Of a DNA stretch of 22,002 bases, positions 127 to 21,886 are shown piece after piece (the stretch's first letter is position 1; each line of letters begins with the position of its first letter). Origin of the DNA: a virus; IMG/VR virus record IMGVR_UViG_3300047481_001191, positions 1-22,002 of that record; one strand, 5' to 3'. A program made the translations under genes and the position numbers. The notes under the pieces were generated by a model that saw nothing but the letters and a program-made list of their open reading frames with translations, ran no database searches and had not been told where the DNA came from.

Positions 127-133
127 GTTACGA

Positions 134-158
134 GGAGGTTGACAACAACCTCCTTTTT
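134..158 (+). terminator. Rho-independent terminator after the upstream gene
   Basis: An 8-bp perfect stem (GGAGGTTG at 134-141 with CAACCTCC at 146-153) and an ACAA loop are followed by five T residues (154-158). The apex TTGACA (139-144) doubles as the -35 box of the next promoter. Confidence 0.85.
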
Positions 159-167
159 CTGTATGAT
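139..167 (+). promoter_or_regulatory. Early sigma-70-type promoter of the carbohydrate operon
   Basis: A perfect -35 TTGACA (139-144) and a -10 TATGAT (162-167) are separated by exactly 17 bases. The -35 sits in the apex of the preceding terminator hairpin and the spacer holds the 3' arm and T-tract. Transcription would start near 174, about 20 bases before the first start codon at 194. Confidence 0.8.
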
Positions 168-193: not shown

Positions 194-1246
194 ATGAGTC
201 AATACGTTAAGAAGGCACTTGTACTTGGTGCTGGAGGCTTCATTGGAAGTCATATGGTAAAGAGACTGCGAGCCGAAGGTTACTGGGTTCGCGGCGTAGA
301 TCTTAAGTATCCCGAATATTCAAAAACAGAAGCAAACGAATTTGTCGTTGGTGATTTACGAAATGTAGATTTTGTTCGTCGTGTTCTTGAATGGAAGGGG
401 GATCACGGTAATTTCTATCAATCTGTTCCCTATCGTTATATTCAAGTATTTGATGAGATCTATCAGTTTGCTGCTGATATGGGTGGAGCAGGATTTGTTT
501 TCACTGGCGAAAACGATGCAGAAATTATGCACAATTCATGTTCTATTAACCTGAACGTTCTTGAAATGCAACGTCAGATGAACGAGCGACATGGTAAGAA
601 TGTAACTAAGATTTTCTATTCTGGTTCTGCTTGCATGTATCCAGAATATAATCAACTTGATCCTGATAATCCCGATTGCCGCGAAGAATCTGCATATCCA
701 GCAGCTCCAGATTCGGAGTACGGTTGGGAAAAACTTTTTAGCGAACGTCTTTATTTTGCTTATAACCGCAACCATGGCATCCCTGTACGGGTCGCTCGCT
801 ACCATAATATCTTTGGTCCCGAAGGAACTTGGGAGGGTGGACGTGAAAAAGCTCCTGCAGCAATCTGCCGCAAAGTAGCATATCTTCCAGAGGCAGGTGG
901 AACAATCGAGGTGTGGGGTGATGGGTTACAAACTCGCTCCTTCTTGTACATTGATGAATGTATTGAAGCGACTCGTAGAATGATGAATAGTGATTTCATG
1001 GGTCCAGTGAATATTGGATCTGAAGAAATGGTTACTATTAATCAACTTGTTGATACTGCTGCCAAGGTAGCAAACAAATATGTTGATAAAGAACATATTT
1101 TAAATGCACCATTGGGCGTTCGTGGTCGCAATAGTAACAACGATCTTATCCGTTCTAAGTTAGGATGGGATTACTCCATGACTCTCGAAGAGGGTATTGC
1201 TAAAACATATGCATGGATTCAAACACAAATTGAGAAAAAACAATGA
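194..1246 (+). CDS. GDP-mannose 3,5-epimerase-like NAD-dependent sugar epimerase
   Basis: This 350-residue extended short-chain dehydrogenase closely resembles the plant enzyme that converts GDP-D-mannose to GDP-L-galactose (and GDP-L-gulose). Seen directly: the Rossmann motif GAGGFIG (12-18), the AADMGG segment (93-98), SACMYPE with Cys147, the catalytic YxxxK as Tyr176/Lys180, REKAPAA with Lys219, and WGDGLQTRSF (241-250). These match the position and context of the catalytic Cys, Tyr and Lys residues of the Arabidopsis enzyme as I recall it. The length is typical of the family. It is the first gene of the operon, with no obvious Shine-Dalgarno before the ATG, and overlaps the next gene by ATGA. 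It would supply a GDP-linked sugar to the downstream transferases. A related GDP-sugar epimerase specificity is possible, but the family call is strong. Confidence 0.88.
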   Translation: MSQYVKKALVLGAGGFIGSHMVKRLRAEGYWVRGVDLKYPEYSKTEANEFVVGDLRNVDFVRRVLEWKGDHGNFYQSVPYRYIQVFDEIYQFAADMGGAGFVFTGENDAEIMHNSCSINLNVLEMQRQMNERHGKNVTKIFYSGSACMYPEYNQLDPDNPDCREESAYPAAPDSEYGWEKLFSERLYFAYNRNHGIPVRVARYHNIFGPEGTWEGGREKAPAAICRKVAYLPEAGGTIEVWGDGLQTRSFLYIDECIEATRRMMNSDFMGPVNIGSEEMVTINQLVDTAAKVANKYVDKEHILNAPLGVRGRNSNNDLIRSKLGWDYSMTLEEGIAKTYAWIQTQIEKKQ

Positions 1247-12477: not shown

Positions 12478-12508
12478 TTTCCTGAAAAATTAAGTATCCA
12501 ATAATACG

Positions 12509-12529
12509 AGGGGAGCTTGACTCCCCTTT
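12509..12529 (+). terminator. Rho-independent terminator after the porin-like gene
   Basis: A 7-bp stem AGGGGAG (12509-12515) / CTCCCCT (12521-12527) with a five-base loop is followed by a short TT-rich tail. The loop overlaps the -35 of the hli promoter. Confidence 0.75.
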
Positions 12530-12545
12530 ATATTTGCTATATAAT
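12517..12545 (+). promoter_or_regulatory. Early sigma-70-type promoter of the hli-peroxiredoxin operon
   Basis: A -35 TTGACT (12517-12522) lies in the terminator loop and a perfect -10 TATAAT (12540-12545) follows with a 17-base spacer. Initiation near 12552 would leave a leader of about 20 bases before the hli start at 12572. Confidence 0.82.
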
Positions 12546-12571: not shown

Positions 12572-12766
12572 ATGACTGTAACTACTAATGAGCGTGGTCA
12601 ACAAAATATGTGGGCAAAAGAGCCCACAATGTATTATGAAAACTATGGCATGTTGACGCCAAATCAAGTTAAGGAACGTACCAATGGTCGATGGGCCATG
12701 ATGGGATTCGTTGCTGGTCTTGTATCTTATGTTGCAACTGGAAACTTTTTCTTTGGAGTATTCTGA
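12572..12766 (+). CDS. hli: High-light-inducible protein (64 residues)
   Basis: This is a single-helix chlorophyll-binding protein of the thylakoid membrane, associated with photoprotection and photosystem II repair. The family motif ExxNGRxAMxGF is complete as ERTNGRWAMMGF, followed by a transmembrane helix FVAGLVSYVATG and the FFFGVF end. A hydrophilic N-terminal region of about 33 residues (WAKEPTMYYENYGMLTPNQVK) resembles cyanobacterial HliA/ScpC types. The ATG at 12572 is used; the upstream in-frame TTG at 12545 lies within the -10 region. It is the first gene of the operon, with a second hli beginning one base after its stop codon. Confidence 0.92.
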   Translation: MTVTTNERGQQNMWAKEPTMYYENYGMLTPNQVKERTNGRWAMMGFVAGLVSYVATGNFFFGVF

Positions 12767-13426: not shown

Positions 13427-13433
13427 AATATGA

Positions 13434-13458
13434 AGCGTCCGAAAGGGCGCTTTTTTTA
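13434..13458 (+). terminator. Rho-independent terminator after the peroxiredoxin gene
   Basis: A 7-bp stem AGCGTCC / GGGCGCT (one G-T pair) around a GAAA tetraloop is followed by seven T residues. The end of the T-tract merges into a late promoter box at 13457-13464. Confidence 0.88.
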
Positions 13459-13464
13459 TAAATA
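13457..13464 (+). promoter_or_regulatory. T4-type late promoter box for the peptidase-lysozyme genes
   Basis: A perfect TATAAATA lies directly at the end of the terminator T-tract and 22 bases before the peptidase start codon at 13487. Lysis genes are expected to be late, which fits. Confidence 0.72.
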
Positions 13465-13486: not shown

Positions 13487-14185
13487 ATGACATTCGATCT
13501 TCATAACTTCTTTAAGCATTTTGATGAAAAGAATCCAAAGCATGTTGCGGCAGTTGAGCAATTTGAAAAAGATCTTCTCGTAAAAGCATCAGATTTGCTT
13601 GATGATAATGCAAATTGGGTAAAGATTTTTAGAAGCAAAGTAGAAGCACCAAAAGTTCCAGGAATTTTAACTGTTCCGTTTTTTCCTCAAACAGACAATT
13701 ACAGAGATGCTCAAAGAACCTGTAATTCATCTGCATGTGCGATGTGTTTAGAATACTTTAAACCAGGAACTTTAGTAGGCCCTAAAGGAGATGATGCTTA
13801 CGTTCAAAAAGTCTTTGCAGTTGGTGACACAACTGATCATACAGTTCAGACCAAAGTTCTTGCGTCTTATGGTATTAAGTCACACTTTAGTTACAATCTT
13901 TCTTTTAATGACCTTGATAAGAATCTTGCTGCTGGAAAACCTGTTGTTATTGGTATCCTTCATCGCGGTTCTTTATCTGCTCCTACTGGCGGGCACATGG
14001 TTGTAGTCATCGGCAAGAAAGGTGAAGACTATGTGGTTAATGATCCGTATGGTAGCCTGAATGATGGTTATACTGGACCTGTAACAAATGGTAAGGGTGC
14101 TATCTATAAGCGTTCTGATCTTGTTCGTAGATGGTGTCCTAAAGGTAATGACGGGTGGGGGAGAATTTTTGACGCAAAAAAGTAA
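13487..14185 (+). CDS. C39-like cysteine peptidase domain protein
   Basis: The 232-residue protein has a helical N-terminus (about 1-52) and a papain-like C39_2-type domain. Candidate catalytic residues are Cys79 in RTCNSSACAM, His170 in GGHMVVVIG and Asp186 in NDPYG; QTDNYRDA before the cysteine supplies the usual oxyanion Gln68. The ATG at 13487 is used because the more upstream ATG lies in the terminator hairpin. The gene ends GCA AAA AAG TAA, a canonical -1 slippery heptamer (A AAA AAG, 14176-14182) at the stop, with an SD-like GGGGGAG 12 bases upstream. The -1 frame runs into the lysozyme. Alone it may cut peptide cross-links in peptidoglycan; a processing role is also possible. Confidence 0.75.
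   Translation: MTFDLHNFFKHFDEKNPKHVAAVEQFEKDLLVKASDLLDDNANWVKIFRSKVEAPKVPGILTVPFFPQTDNYRDAQRTCNSSACAMCLEYFKPGTLVGPKGDDAYVQKVFAVGDTTDHTVQTKVLASYGIKSHFSYNLSFNDLDKNLAAGKPVVIGILHRGSLSAPTGGHMVVVIGKKGEDYVVNDPYGSLNDGYTGPVTNGKGAIYKRSDLVRRWCPKGNDGWGRIFDAKK
14157..14185 (+). promoter_or_regulatory. Candidate -1 programmed frameshift signal
   Basis: Elements in order: SD-like GGGGGAG (14157-14163), a 12-base gap, the slippery heptamer A AAA AAG (14176-14182) in the peptidase frame, and the zero-frame stop TAA (14183-14185). After slippage the -1 frame continues GTA ACA TCG without a stop into the GH24 domain. The layout resembles E. coli dnaX, where an SD-like sequence upstream of A AAA AAG stimulates slipping. 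A possible downstream hairpin (14196-14211, TAAC/GTTA) is weak. An A-run length error would mimic this. Confidence 0.55.
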
Positions 14186-14910: not shown

Positions 14911-15612
14911 ATGGCTAATAATAGAGAACTTGGGCAGTTTGGTCGCCTAGTTACGGTTGTTGATAATGTATTTGTTGGTGTGGGAACTACATCAAATCAA
15001 ACAATTACATTCGGTAATATTGCTCCAACTGGGGTCAATGCTTCTGGTGTAGTTACTGCATCTAGGTTCTTTGGTTCTGGTTCATCATTAACCGGTGTCA
15101 TTACTTCATTGAATGCTGGTGCAAATGTTACTATCACTCAATTTTCTGGGATTGCCACAATTAGTGCAACTGCTAGTGGCGGAGGAGGAACTTCTTCTCA
15201 GTGGACCACAGGTGAAACAGGTATTACTACAACATCAAGTGTTGGAATTAAATCAACAGCACCAACATCAGCATTGGATGTTACAGGAAATGTTAAAGTT
15301 TCTGGAATTATAACCGCAACCGATTTCAACTCATCATCGGATATTAATTTAAAAACAAATATACAAACCATAGAAAATCCAATCAGCAAGTTATTTGAGA
15401 TTAATGGTGTTACATTTAATTGGATTGAAAACGAAAAGGCATCTGTTGGTGTTATCGCACAAGACGTTGAAAAGGTATTGCCAGAACTTGTAAACAACAT
15501 GGGATCCCACAAGGTTGTAAACTACAACGGTTTAATCGGCCTTCTGATAGAATGTATCAAGCATCAGCAGGGGCAAATCAACGAACTCAAAGAACACATG
15601 ATTGGCTCTTGA
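14911..15612 (+). CDS. Tail-fibre-type protein with S74 intramolecular chaperone domain
   Basis: The 233-residue protein has a glycine-, serine- and threonine-rich beta-structured N-terminal two thirds with repeat-like GVGTTSNQTI / GVVTASRFFGSGSSLTGV segments. A C-terminal peptidase S74 (endosialidase chaperone) domain begins at SSDINLKTNI, with the autocleavage Ser143-Asp144. It continues through GVIAQDVEKVLPEL (180-193), VNYNGLIGLL and a terminal coiled coil. In such proteins the chaperone trimerises the fibre and then cleaves itself off. It is short for a receptor-binding fibre, so it may be a small spike or whisker-type appendage. Its stop overlaps the -35 of the psbA promoter. Confidence 0.85.
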   Translation: MANNRELGQFGRLVTVVDNVFVGVGTTSNQTITFGNIAPTGVNASGVVTASRFFGSGSSLTGVITSLNAGANVTITQFSGIATISATASGGGGTSSQWTTGETGITTTSSVGIKSTAPTSALDVTGNVKVSGIITATDFNSSSDINLKTNIQTIENPISKLFEINGVTFNWIENEKASVGVIAQDVEKVLPELVNNMGSHKVVNYNGLIGLLIECIKHQQGQINELKEHMIGS

Positions 15613-15637
15613 CAGGATTTCCTGACAATGTTATGAT
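15609..15637 (+). promoter_or_regulatory. Early sigma-70-type promoter of psbA
   Basis: A perfect -35 TTGACA (15609-15614) overlaps the tail-fibre stop codon. A 17-base spacer follows, then the -10 TATGAT (15632-15637). It would start near 15644 and give a leader of about 148 bases. Confidence 0.82.
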
Positions 15638-16874: not shown

Positions 16875-16903
16875 TAAAATAAAAACTGAATAATATCAAA
16901 AGG

Positions 16904-16927
16904 GGGACTTGCAAAAGTCCCTTTTTT
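16904..16927 (+). terminator. Rho-independent terminator after psbA
   Basis: A 7-bp stem GGGACTT (16904-16910) / AAGTCCC (16915-16921) with loop GCAA is followed by six T residues. Its apex also supplies the -35 TTGCAA of the next promoter. Confidence 0.88.
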
Positions 16928-16937
16928 AATATATAAT
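16909..16937 (+). promoter_or_regulatory. Early promoter of the endonuclease VII-like pair
   Basis: A -35 TTGCAA (16909-16914) in the terminator apex, a 17-base spacer, and a perfect -10 TATAAT (16932-16937). A short direct repeat AATACACGAAT follows twice (16939-16949 and 16951-16961), just before and into the start codon at 16960. Confidence 0.7.
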
Positions 16938-16959
16938 AATACACGAATATAATACACGA

Positions 16960-17391
16960 ATGGCAAGACCAACTCAAACTACTGGAAGCAAAACCTGCAC
17001 CAAGTGTGGTGTAACCAAAGAAATCACAGAGTTTTATAAAAGGGGTGGAAAACAGTCACCAAATACAAGACATAATCATTGTAAAGAATGCACTAAAATG
17101 AGAGTATCTGCAACTCCATCTATTGTAAAAAGAGAGCAAGCACTTAAAAGAATGTATGGCATTACTCAACAAGATTATGAGGTAATGATTGTGGAGCAAA
17201 ATAACCAGTGTGCTATTTGCAATACAACAGAACCTGGTGGAAGACATAATAGTGATTACTTTGTTGTAGATCATTGTCACACCACTGGTAAGGTTAGAAA
17301 ACTACTTTGTCATAACTGCAACACCGCACTGGGTCTTGTGGGAGATAATATAAACACACTTCAAAAAATGATTGAGTATTTAAATCAATGA
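16960..17391 (+). CDS. Endonuclease VII-family (HNH/His-Me finger) nuclease, first copy
   Basis: The 143-residue protein resembles T4 gp49-type recombination endonuclease VII. A zinc-knuckle-like pair CTKC (13-16) / CKEC (41-44) is followed by the nuclease core: CAIC (84-87), DHCHTTGKVR (104-113) with the catalytic DHCH, CHNC (117-120), and NTALGLVGDN (121-130) ending the His-Me finger. In cyanophage S-PM2 a freestanding homing endonuclease (F-CphI) is reported between psbA and psbD and targets intronless psbA. Location here is equivalent, so a freestanding homing role is plausible; a general junction resolvase is the alternative. It overlaps the next gene by ATGA. Confidence 0.82.
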   Translation: MARPTQTTGSKTCTKCGVTKEITEFYKRGGKQSPNTRHNHCKECTKMRVSATPSIVKREQALKRMYGITQQDYEVMIVEQNNQCAICNTTEPGGRHNSDYFVVDHCHTTGKVRKLLCHNCNTALGLVGDNINTLQKMIEYLNQ

Positions 17392-17771
17392 TTAAAGAAT
17401 GTAGAATTTGTGGTATTAAAAAACCATTATCAGAATTTCATAAATGCTCCAATGAGAAAATTATTAATGGAAAAATTTATCCAGTAAGATATAGAAGTGA
17501 ATGTAAAAAATGTAGAAGAGTTGGTGGTAAAGCTCATTCTTCTGCTGCAAAAAAACTAATGGAGCAGAGTGGAATGAAAAGACCACCATTAGGAACTCCT
17601 TGTGATAATTGCGGTAAGGCAGATCAGAAACTAATATTTGATCATTGCCATGAAACTGGAAAATTTAGAGGATGGTTGTGCTATCAATGTAATACTGCTA
17701 TAGGAAATTTAGGAGATAACATTGATGGTCTGATGAGAGCAGTTCAATATTTGAGCACTAATACTCATTGA
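17388..17771 (+). CDS. Endonuclease VII-family nuclease, second copy
   Basis: A 127-residue second member with the same plan: CRIC (5-8) / CKKC (39-42), then CDNC (72-75), DHCHETGKFRG (85-95), CYQC (98-101) and NTAIGNLGDN (102-111). It is diverged from its neighbour outside the core, so it is either an old duplication or an independent arrival. Both appear catalytically intact. It starts within the stop of the first copy and ends about 50 bases before psbD. Two consecutive nucleases could act on different targets or as a pair. Confidence 0.82.
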   Translation: MIKECRICGIKKPLSEFHKCSNEKIINGKIYPVRYRSECKKCRRVGGKAHSSAAKKLMEQSGMKRPPLGTPCDNCGKADQKLIFDHCHETGKFRGWLCYQCNTAIGNLGDNIDGLMRAVQYLSTNTH

Positions 17772-18884: not shown

Positions 18885-18891
18885 TATACTG

Positions 18892-18917
18892 GGAGGGGAT
18901 AACCCTCCTTTTATTTT
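18892..18917 (+). terminator. Rho-independent terminator after psbD
   Basis: A 6-bp stem GGAGGG (18892-18897) / CCCTCC (18903-18908) with a GATAA loop precedes a T-rich tail (TTTTATTTT). Confidence 0.8.
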
Positions 18918-21594: not shown

Positions 21595-21599
21595 AATTG

Positions 21600-21624
21600 G
21601 GAGGGTTTACACCCTCCTTTTTTT
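21600..21624 (+). terminator. Rho-independent terminator of the riboswitch unit
   Basis: A 7-bp stem GGAGGGT (21600-21606) / ACCCTCC (21611-21617) with a TTAC loop precedes seven T residues. Confidence 0.9.
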
Positions 21625-21634
21625 ATGATAAAAT
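21606..21634 (+). promoter_or_regulatory. Early-type promoter nested in the terminator
   Basis: A -35-like TTTACA (21606-21611) at the hairpin apex, a 17-base spacer and a -10 TAAAAT (21629-21634). It would serve the gene at 21656. TATGAT at 21624-21629 is an alternative -10 but is spaced only 12 bases away. Confidence 0.55.
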
Positions 21635-21655: not shown

Positions 21656-21886
21656 ATGGACAAAGACAAACTTAAATTGATTGTTCGCAATCTTGAATTG
21701 CTAGTAGATTCTTTGAAGTCTGAAATTTATTCTGACACTCAAAGTTACCTAGAGTATGATAAAATTACAGCAGCCCTCAACGATTATGATGAGGTGTTTG
21801 AAGACGATGACTACGAAGATGATGTGACTAATTCTATAAATAAATCATATCGATTAATAAACGATGATGATGGAGACGGATTATAA
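21656..21886 (+). CDS. Conserved-looking small acidic cyanophage protein
   Basis: The 76-residue protein has a helical N-terminal half (DKDKLKLIVRNLELLVDSLKSEIYSD), then YDKITAALNDYDEVFEDDDYEDD and an acidic C-terminus. I recognise the N-terminus as a common cyanophage hypothetical protein. ATG 21656 is used; an upstream in-frame TTG lies next to the -10. Its last 17 bases overlap the next gene in another frame. A TATAAATA at 21835-21842 lies within it. Confidence 0.78.
   Translation: MDKDKLKLIVRNLELLVDSLKSEIYSDTQSYLEYDKITAALNDYDEVFEDDDYEDDVTNSINKSYRLINDDDGDGL
21835..21842 (+). promoter_or_regulatory. Late promoter box inside the small acidic gene
   Basis: A perfect TATAAATA lies 28 bases upstream of the start of the endonuclease gene at 21870. 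It lies in coding sequence, so it may be chance in A/T-rich DNA or may drive the following gene late. Confidence 0.35.

Follow-up and report, generated by a model that had tools for sequence, protein, structure and literature searches.

In the gaps between genes of a T4-like cyanophage fragment, there are four sites at which a predicted intrinsic terminator and a sigma-70-type promoter use the same bases, with the -35 box in the apex of the terminator hairpin and the -10 box 17 bp beyond it. Judged from sequence, each of these composite elements is probably (at a probability of roughly 0.8) a bifunctional terminator-promoter that is used by the host RNA polymerase and that packs the boundaries of transcription units tightly. 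Elements of this kind, about 35 bases long, recur in viruses of Synechococcus-type cyanobacteria. The fragment, called the window below, is the whole 22-kb stretch of DNA that was analysed, and its content of psbA, psbD, hli, peroxiredoxin and speD marks it as T4-like cyanophage DNA.

Composite elements in the window

At all four sites a GC-rich RNA hairpin is followed directly by a T-tract, the sequence test used here for terminators, and RNA folding places the -35 box in the loop or apex (z -3.7 to -5.3; Table 1). The -35 and -10 boxes together match the sigma-70 consensus at 10-11 of 12 positions, and the spacer is exactly 17 bases at 4/4 sites. The stem arms differ among the four copies, and the intergenic gaps are 61-94 nt long. 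Seven terminators were detected in the window, of which four are composite; 60 dinucleotide shuffles of the window yielded no composites and a mean of 0.35 terminators. The preliminary description of this DNA had proposed four instances of one geometry with a 17-base spacer, and all four were found where it had placed them.

Two small ORFs (16960-17388 and 17388-17771) lie between psbA and psbD, the first being of the endonuclease VII/HNH type, with the composite at 16904 as its predicted promoter. Another locus (L007) has the same hairpin as site 3, followed by an ORF in a similar position.

Table 1. Positions in the window of predicted terminator and promoter parts and of the genes that follow them.
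Feature	Position	Strand	Remarks
Site 1 terminator hairpin, GAGGAGGTTG-ACAA-CAACCTCCTT, then T-tract	132-155	+	RNA fold -14.7 kcal/mol; z -5.26 with flanks
Site 1 -35 box, TTGACA	139-144	+	spans hairpin apex
Site 1 -10 box, TATGAT	162-167	+	17-bp spacer; expected start near 174
Gene after site 1, nucleotide-sugar epimerase (phrog_540)	194-1246		
Site 2 terminator hairpin, GAGGGGAG-CTTGA-CTCCCCTT	12508-12528	+	RNA fold -12.7 kcal/mol
Site 2 -35 box, TTGACT	12517-12522	+	final bases paired in stem
Site 2 -10 box, TATAAT	12540-12545	+	next gene hli (phrog_178) at 12572
Site 3 terminator hairpin, AAGGGGGACTT-GCAA-AAGTCCCTTTT	16900-16925	+	after psbA; -13.7 kcal/mol; z -5.28
Site 3 -35 box, TTGCAA	16909-16914	+	
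Site 3 -10 box, TATAAT	16932-16937	+	next gene at 16960, endonuclease VII family
Site 4 terminator hairpin, GGGAGGGT-TTAC-ACCCTCCT	21599-21618	+	RNA fold -12.7 kcal/mol
Site 4 -35 box, TTTACA	21606-21611	+	
Site 4 -10 box, TAAAAT	21629-21634	+	next gene at 21656 (phrog_878, unknown function)
Terminator (13432-13453) with T-tract running into TATAAATA (13457-13464)	13432-13464	+	T4-type late promoter
-10 box TATACT (18885-18890) immediately before terminator hairpin (18891-18909)	18885-18909	+	after psbD; expected start ~18897, inside 5' arm

Enrichment and spacing in related loci

The arrangement was sought in about 320 IMG/VR loci (4.1 Mb) around psbA, speD, peroxiredoxin and epimerase genes. 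Terminators were called by one fixed rule and collapsed to 519 clusters below 70% identity; a terminator counted as composite when a promoter with at least 9/12 consensus matches had its -35 box in the hairpin apex. The rule requires near-perfect stems, so that some composites are missed. By these definitions 92 of the 519 non-redundant clusters are composite, a proportion that is not a genome-wide rate because the loci were sampled around few genes. A single shuffle of all 4.1 Mb gave one composite; the enrichment over controls that the preliminary description had expected of related phages is therefore present.

The position of the promoter within the terminator is narrowly set. Relative to the loop centre, the -35 box starts at -5 to -1 in 92 clusters and at -23 to -6 in none, and starts further downstream number 0-4 per position. 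Apex placement thus accounts for 92 clusters at five offsets, whereas tandem placement downstream accounts for about 50, scattered over roughly 50 offsets. From a TTG in the apex, a good -10 box is found at 17 bp in 65 clusters and at each distance of 13-16 and 18-30 bp in only 0-3. The first eight bases after the stem average 6.9 T in composites and 6.2 T in non-composite terminators. The start codon of the next gene usually follows the composite stem by about 29-42 nt (interquartile range).

Other close arrangements of stop and start

Signals for stopping and starting also meet in other ways, as at the remaining two plus-strand terminators of the window. The terminator that runs into the late promoter TATAAATA in the window precedes a lysis-type gene (C39-peptidase/endolysin type) at 13487. 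A T-tract leading to such a promoter, 7-9 nt past the stem, was seen in 28/519 terminator clusters, and T4 itself has 3/25; the arrangement seems to be a counterpart of the composite element for late genes.

A -10 box can also stand before a terminator hairpin, usually by 0-4 nt, as it does after psbD. This was found in 47 clusters, 31 of them not at psbA or psbD ends, and the -35 box is often supplied by the stop regions of psbA and psbD. From the layout, transcription would begin within the 5' arm, and the terminator would not stop the new RNA. Five loci (L185, L194, L222, L224 and L238) show yet another arrangement upstream of hli, with the hairpin immediately ahead of the -35 position and its T-tract TTGTTTTTTC in place of the -35 box. 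The window also has a strong promoter ahead of psbA (15609-15637; TTGACA-17-TATGAT, with an extended -10), which overlaps the 3' end of a tail-fibre-like gene; an imperfect hairpin over this promoter was rejected as not significant (z -1.35).

Covariation of the stem arms

Two sites were followed across many phages. The region upstream of hli, in 96 distinct sequences, has the composite in 50, the promoter alone in 37 and neither in nine; upstream of the epimerase gene the corresponding counts among 100 sequences are 39, 31 and 30. Both sites are composite in the marine phage S-SM2 (143544 and 167144), the hli site is composite in S-PM2, and the sugar-dehydratase site is composite in DSL-LC03.

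The final base of the -35 box is paired with base -3 in the hli composites (pair -3/+5). This pair is formed in 25/26 cases and takes all four Watson-Crick kinds (TA 9, GC 9, AT 6, CG 1), while shuffling of the 3' letters leaves 8.1 paired on average and 14 at most. Where the hairpin is missing, the same base is mostly the consensus A (14/17 TTGAC promoters). The epimerase pair -4/+12 is likewise formed in 25/26 cases, against 11.7 in shuffles, which at both sites ignore relatedness. The counts of change along gene trees correct for relatedness in part: the hli pair changes type at least 11 times and the epimerase pair at least nine times, on trees that come from quick searches, with an hli CDS of only 192 bp and recombination likely. 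The arms thus covary at both sites while the 17-bp spacing and the -10 box stay constant, a pattern that supports selection acting on both the terminator and the promoter parts through the same bases.

Free variation of the arms bears on a different reading of the inverted repeat, namely that it is the operator of a regulatory protein and not a terminator. The repeat is indeed centred on the -35 box, but its arms vary freely while complementarity is kept, even with C in the left arm and G in the right, and the T-tract that goes with the hairpin mostly disappears when the hairpin does. Both features fit poorly with a sequence-specific protein site. Arm sequence is not conserved across sites, and an operator, largely refuted by the covariation, appears very improbable.

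Hairpin, T-tract and upstream gene

The spacer is T-rich in 46/46 hli sites with a hairpin and in 13/35 without one; at the epimerase site the fractions are 34/35 and 9/33. Hairpin and T-tract are therefore gained and lost together, the T-tract mostly going with the hairpin. The presence of a hairpin was also compared with that of a co-directional gene ending no more than 250 nt upstream. Such a gene precedes 45/46 hli sites with a hairpin and 24/35 without (p = 3e-4), and 32/35 and 12/33 epimerase sites, respectively (p = 2e-6). When the pairs compared were phylogenetically independent, every informative case at the epimerase site lay in the expected direction, with a borderline median p of about 0.06; the hli site offered too few pairs. 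Together with the T-tract association, this is the pattern that a terminator serving the upstream gene should produce.

Distribution among phages and hosts

In complete or near-complete genomes of T4-like cyanophages, use of the composite is patchy, ranging from 0 to 5 per genome. As fractions of the terminators detected, composites make up 2/21 in S-PM2, 3/20 in S-SM2, 1/13 in P-HM1, 5/33 in S-SRM01, 3/24 in DSL-LC02, 2/28 in DSL-LC03, 2/25 in S-CREM1 and 1/27 in S-SZBM1; P-SSM2 has 2/23, with spacers of 16 bp. None was detected in Syn9, S-TIM5, S-CRM01, HTVC008M or P-SSP7 (partial). The window, with 4/7, is unusually rich.

All IMG/VR viral contigs were searched for an exact pattern consisting of purine and pyrimidine arms around the -35 box (R-TTGACA-Y), five T and TATAAT at 17 bp. 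It occurs on 94 contigs, compared with one for a version with a 21-bp spacer, and represents 44 distinct elements at 80% identity; 81/93 matches form a hairpin around the -35 box. Kyanoviridae-type proteins, defined by their similarity to proteins encoded in seven reference genomes of the family, are encoded on 93/94 of these contigs. The swapped arms Y-TTGACA-R, intended as a control, proved to be mostly hairpins as well (31/40 matches; 41 contigs, of which 38 are Kyanovirus-type). Unpairable R-TTGACA-R arms, used as the control instead, occur on 14 contigs, none of which is Kyanovirus-type. These counts indicate that, in Kyanoviridae, a consensus promoter with a T-tract spacer goes with pairable arms, and that unpairable arms belong to other viruses. 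Among IMG/VR contigs the nested element is nearly restricted to Kyanoviridae and comes close to being a signature of the family. The preliminary description had spoken of T4-like cyanophages in general; it named the right group, although several genomes of that group are without the element.

A general T4 trait was rejected, there being no composite among 25 T4 terminators. An origin in the host was likewise rejected: composites are missing from 35 terminators of WH7803 (400 kb) and from 194 terminators in 1.36 Mb of cyanobacterial loci, and 292 cyanobacterial genomes hold no exact match to the pattern. Cyanophage genomes (W01-W16) carry the simpler motif TTGAC-N18-TATAAT as many as 15 times each, in most of them nearly always on one strand; three whole marine picocyanobacterial genomes (G001-G003) do not have it at all, which indicates that the phage promoters are far nearer to consensus than those of the host.

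Proposed mechanism and alternatives

Cyanomyoviruses are without alt, modA, motA and asi, and unmodified host sigma-70 polymerase is therefore thought to drive their early genes (PMC2984593). Rho is missing from cyanobacteria (PMC13289151), so that a phage in need of sharp unit boundaries would have to rely on intrinsic terminators. In the mechanism that we propose, the hairpin and T-tract would end transcripts arriving from the upstream gene. As double-stranded DNA, the hairpin apex would serve as the -35 box of an early-type promoter for the host sigma-70-type polymerase, with the 3' arm and T-tract occupying the 17-bp spacer up to the -10 box. The next transcript would begin about 20 nt past the hairpin and, not containing it, could not be terminated by it. 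Placing the -35 box in the loop would be the shortest way of fitting a stop and a start between close co-directional genes, the loop being the only free sequence in a terminator. Termination and initiation at these sites are what we infer from the sequences, with compaction and insulation as the likely reason for the nesting.

The preliminary description had suggested one standard layout in which, over some 35 bases, the upstream transcript would end and the following one begin; arm covariation, the fixed 17-bp spacer, the joint loss of hairpin and T-tract and the link with an upstream gene all argue in favour of it. Its further suggestion, that the elements could be portable boundaries for exchanging cassettes, was not supported. 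The arms differ between copies, so that homologous exchange would have no common sequence to act on, and the hli and epimerase elements stay with their downstream gene across phages.

The nesting may also couple the two activities. After termination, E. coli RNA polymerase stays bound to the DNA, moves along it by diffusion and starts again at promoters close by; 37% of terminations were followed by such downstream re-initiation, a share that was 55% when sigma-70 was added (PMC6978380). By analogy, a polymerase that has released the upstream RNA could stay on the DNA, rebind sigma and re-initiate at the nested promoter, so that upstream transcription would feed the downstream gene. As this reading would have it, RNA release would fall immediately before the -10 box, and, counted per position, the apex holds a -35 box far more often than do the tandem positions downstream. 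The apex is, however, also simply the shortest layout, so that geometry alone does not discriminate, and many orthologues keep the promoter without the hairpin, which shows that the promoter does not need the terminator. We regard such a hand-off as possible but doubtful; it could supplement the bifunctional terminator-promoter reading, not replace it. The stronger proposal, that nesting is a coupling device by which the next promoter preferentially reuses the terminating polymerase in a relay-style expression suited to Rho-less hosts, we consider rather unlikely.

Alternatively, the two activities might exclude each other. An open complex extends from about -55 to +20 and hence covers the whole hairpin. 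An initiating polymerase would thus cover the terminator DNA, an arriving polymerase would have to clear the promoter, and heavy upstream transcription, for example of late genes, would shut off the downstream early promoter. The hairpin does occur mostly where a co-directional gene lies upstream, but similar interference would affect any promoter close behind a gene, and a switch of this kind seems improbable. An N4-type promoter, at which a phage RNA polymerase recognises an extruded DNA hairpin, would explain a hairpin at a promoter, but the consensus -35 and -10 boxes at 17 bp are a sigma-70 layout, a T-tract follows the hairpin, and the host polymerase is thought to transcribe the early genes of cyanomyoviruses (PMC2984593), all of which makes this reading exceedingly improbable. 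Chance overlap of AT-rich terminators with promoter-like matches, to which the 38 promoter-like sites in a consensus scan of the first half of the window (40 in shuffles) might seem to point, is refuted by the near lack of composites in shuffles of the window and of the 4.1 Mb, by the single-spacer peak and by arm covariation.

Relation to known systems

As bifunctional terminator-promoters, the elements would combine two familiar signals. Like intrinsic (Rho-independent) terminators they have a hairpin that is GC-rich, measures about 7 bp and precedes a run of 6-8 T, but the loop is a -35 hexamer and not a stabilising UUCG or GAAA. Like sigma-70 promoters of bacteria and the early promoters of T4-like cyanophages they have a TTGACA-type -35 box, a 17-bp spacer and a TATAAT-type -10 box; unlike a plain sigma-70 promoter, the spacer and the flanks of the -35 box form a terminator, and the last -35 base is used for stem pairing. 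The comparisons show two transcription signals under selection on the same bases, among them a -35 base whose identity can change provided that it stays paired.

Promoters, intrinsic terminators and close tandem pairs are already known. In the Kayvirus vB_SauM-515A1, promoter p98 lies directly behind terminator t97 (PMC7698491); there too a phage sets a stop and a start close together, but in tandem and at one site, whereas in the cyanophages the promoter lies inside the hairpin, with a fixed geometry and many times over. Bifunctional terminator-promoter elements engineered for yeast also unite both functions in one part, but are synthetic, eukaryotic and fused, and not nested (PMC10298055). 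What appears to be new is the recurrent, covarying nested version, of which no prior description was found in the literature searched, many subscription papers lying outside that search.

In 2010 the early and middle regulation of cyanophages was called unclear (PMC2984593), and the element aids the prediction of their transcription units. Recycling of RNA polymerase after intrinsic termination offers a possible mechanism for a stop beside a start, but was studied in vitro, with E. coli RNA polymerase and separate units (PMC6978380). In the work found, the question of polymerase reuse has so far been addressed only with such separated units in vitro; the nested cyanophage elements provide a compact natural part for studying the reuse of a just-terminated polymerase at an overlapping promoter.
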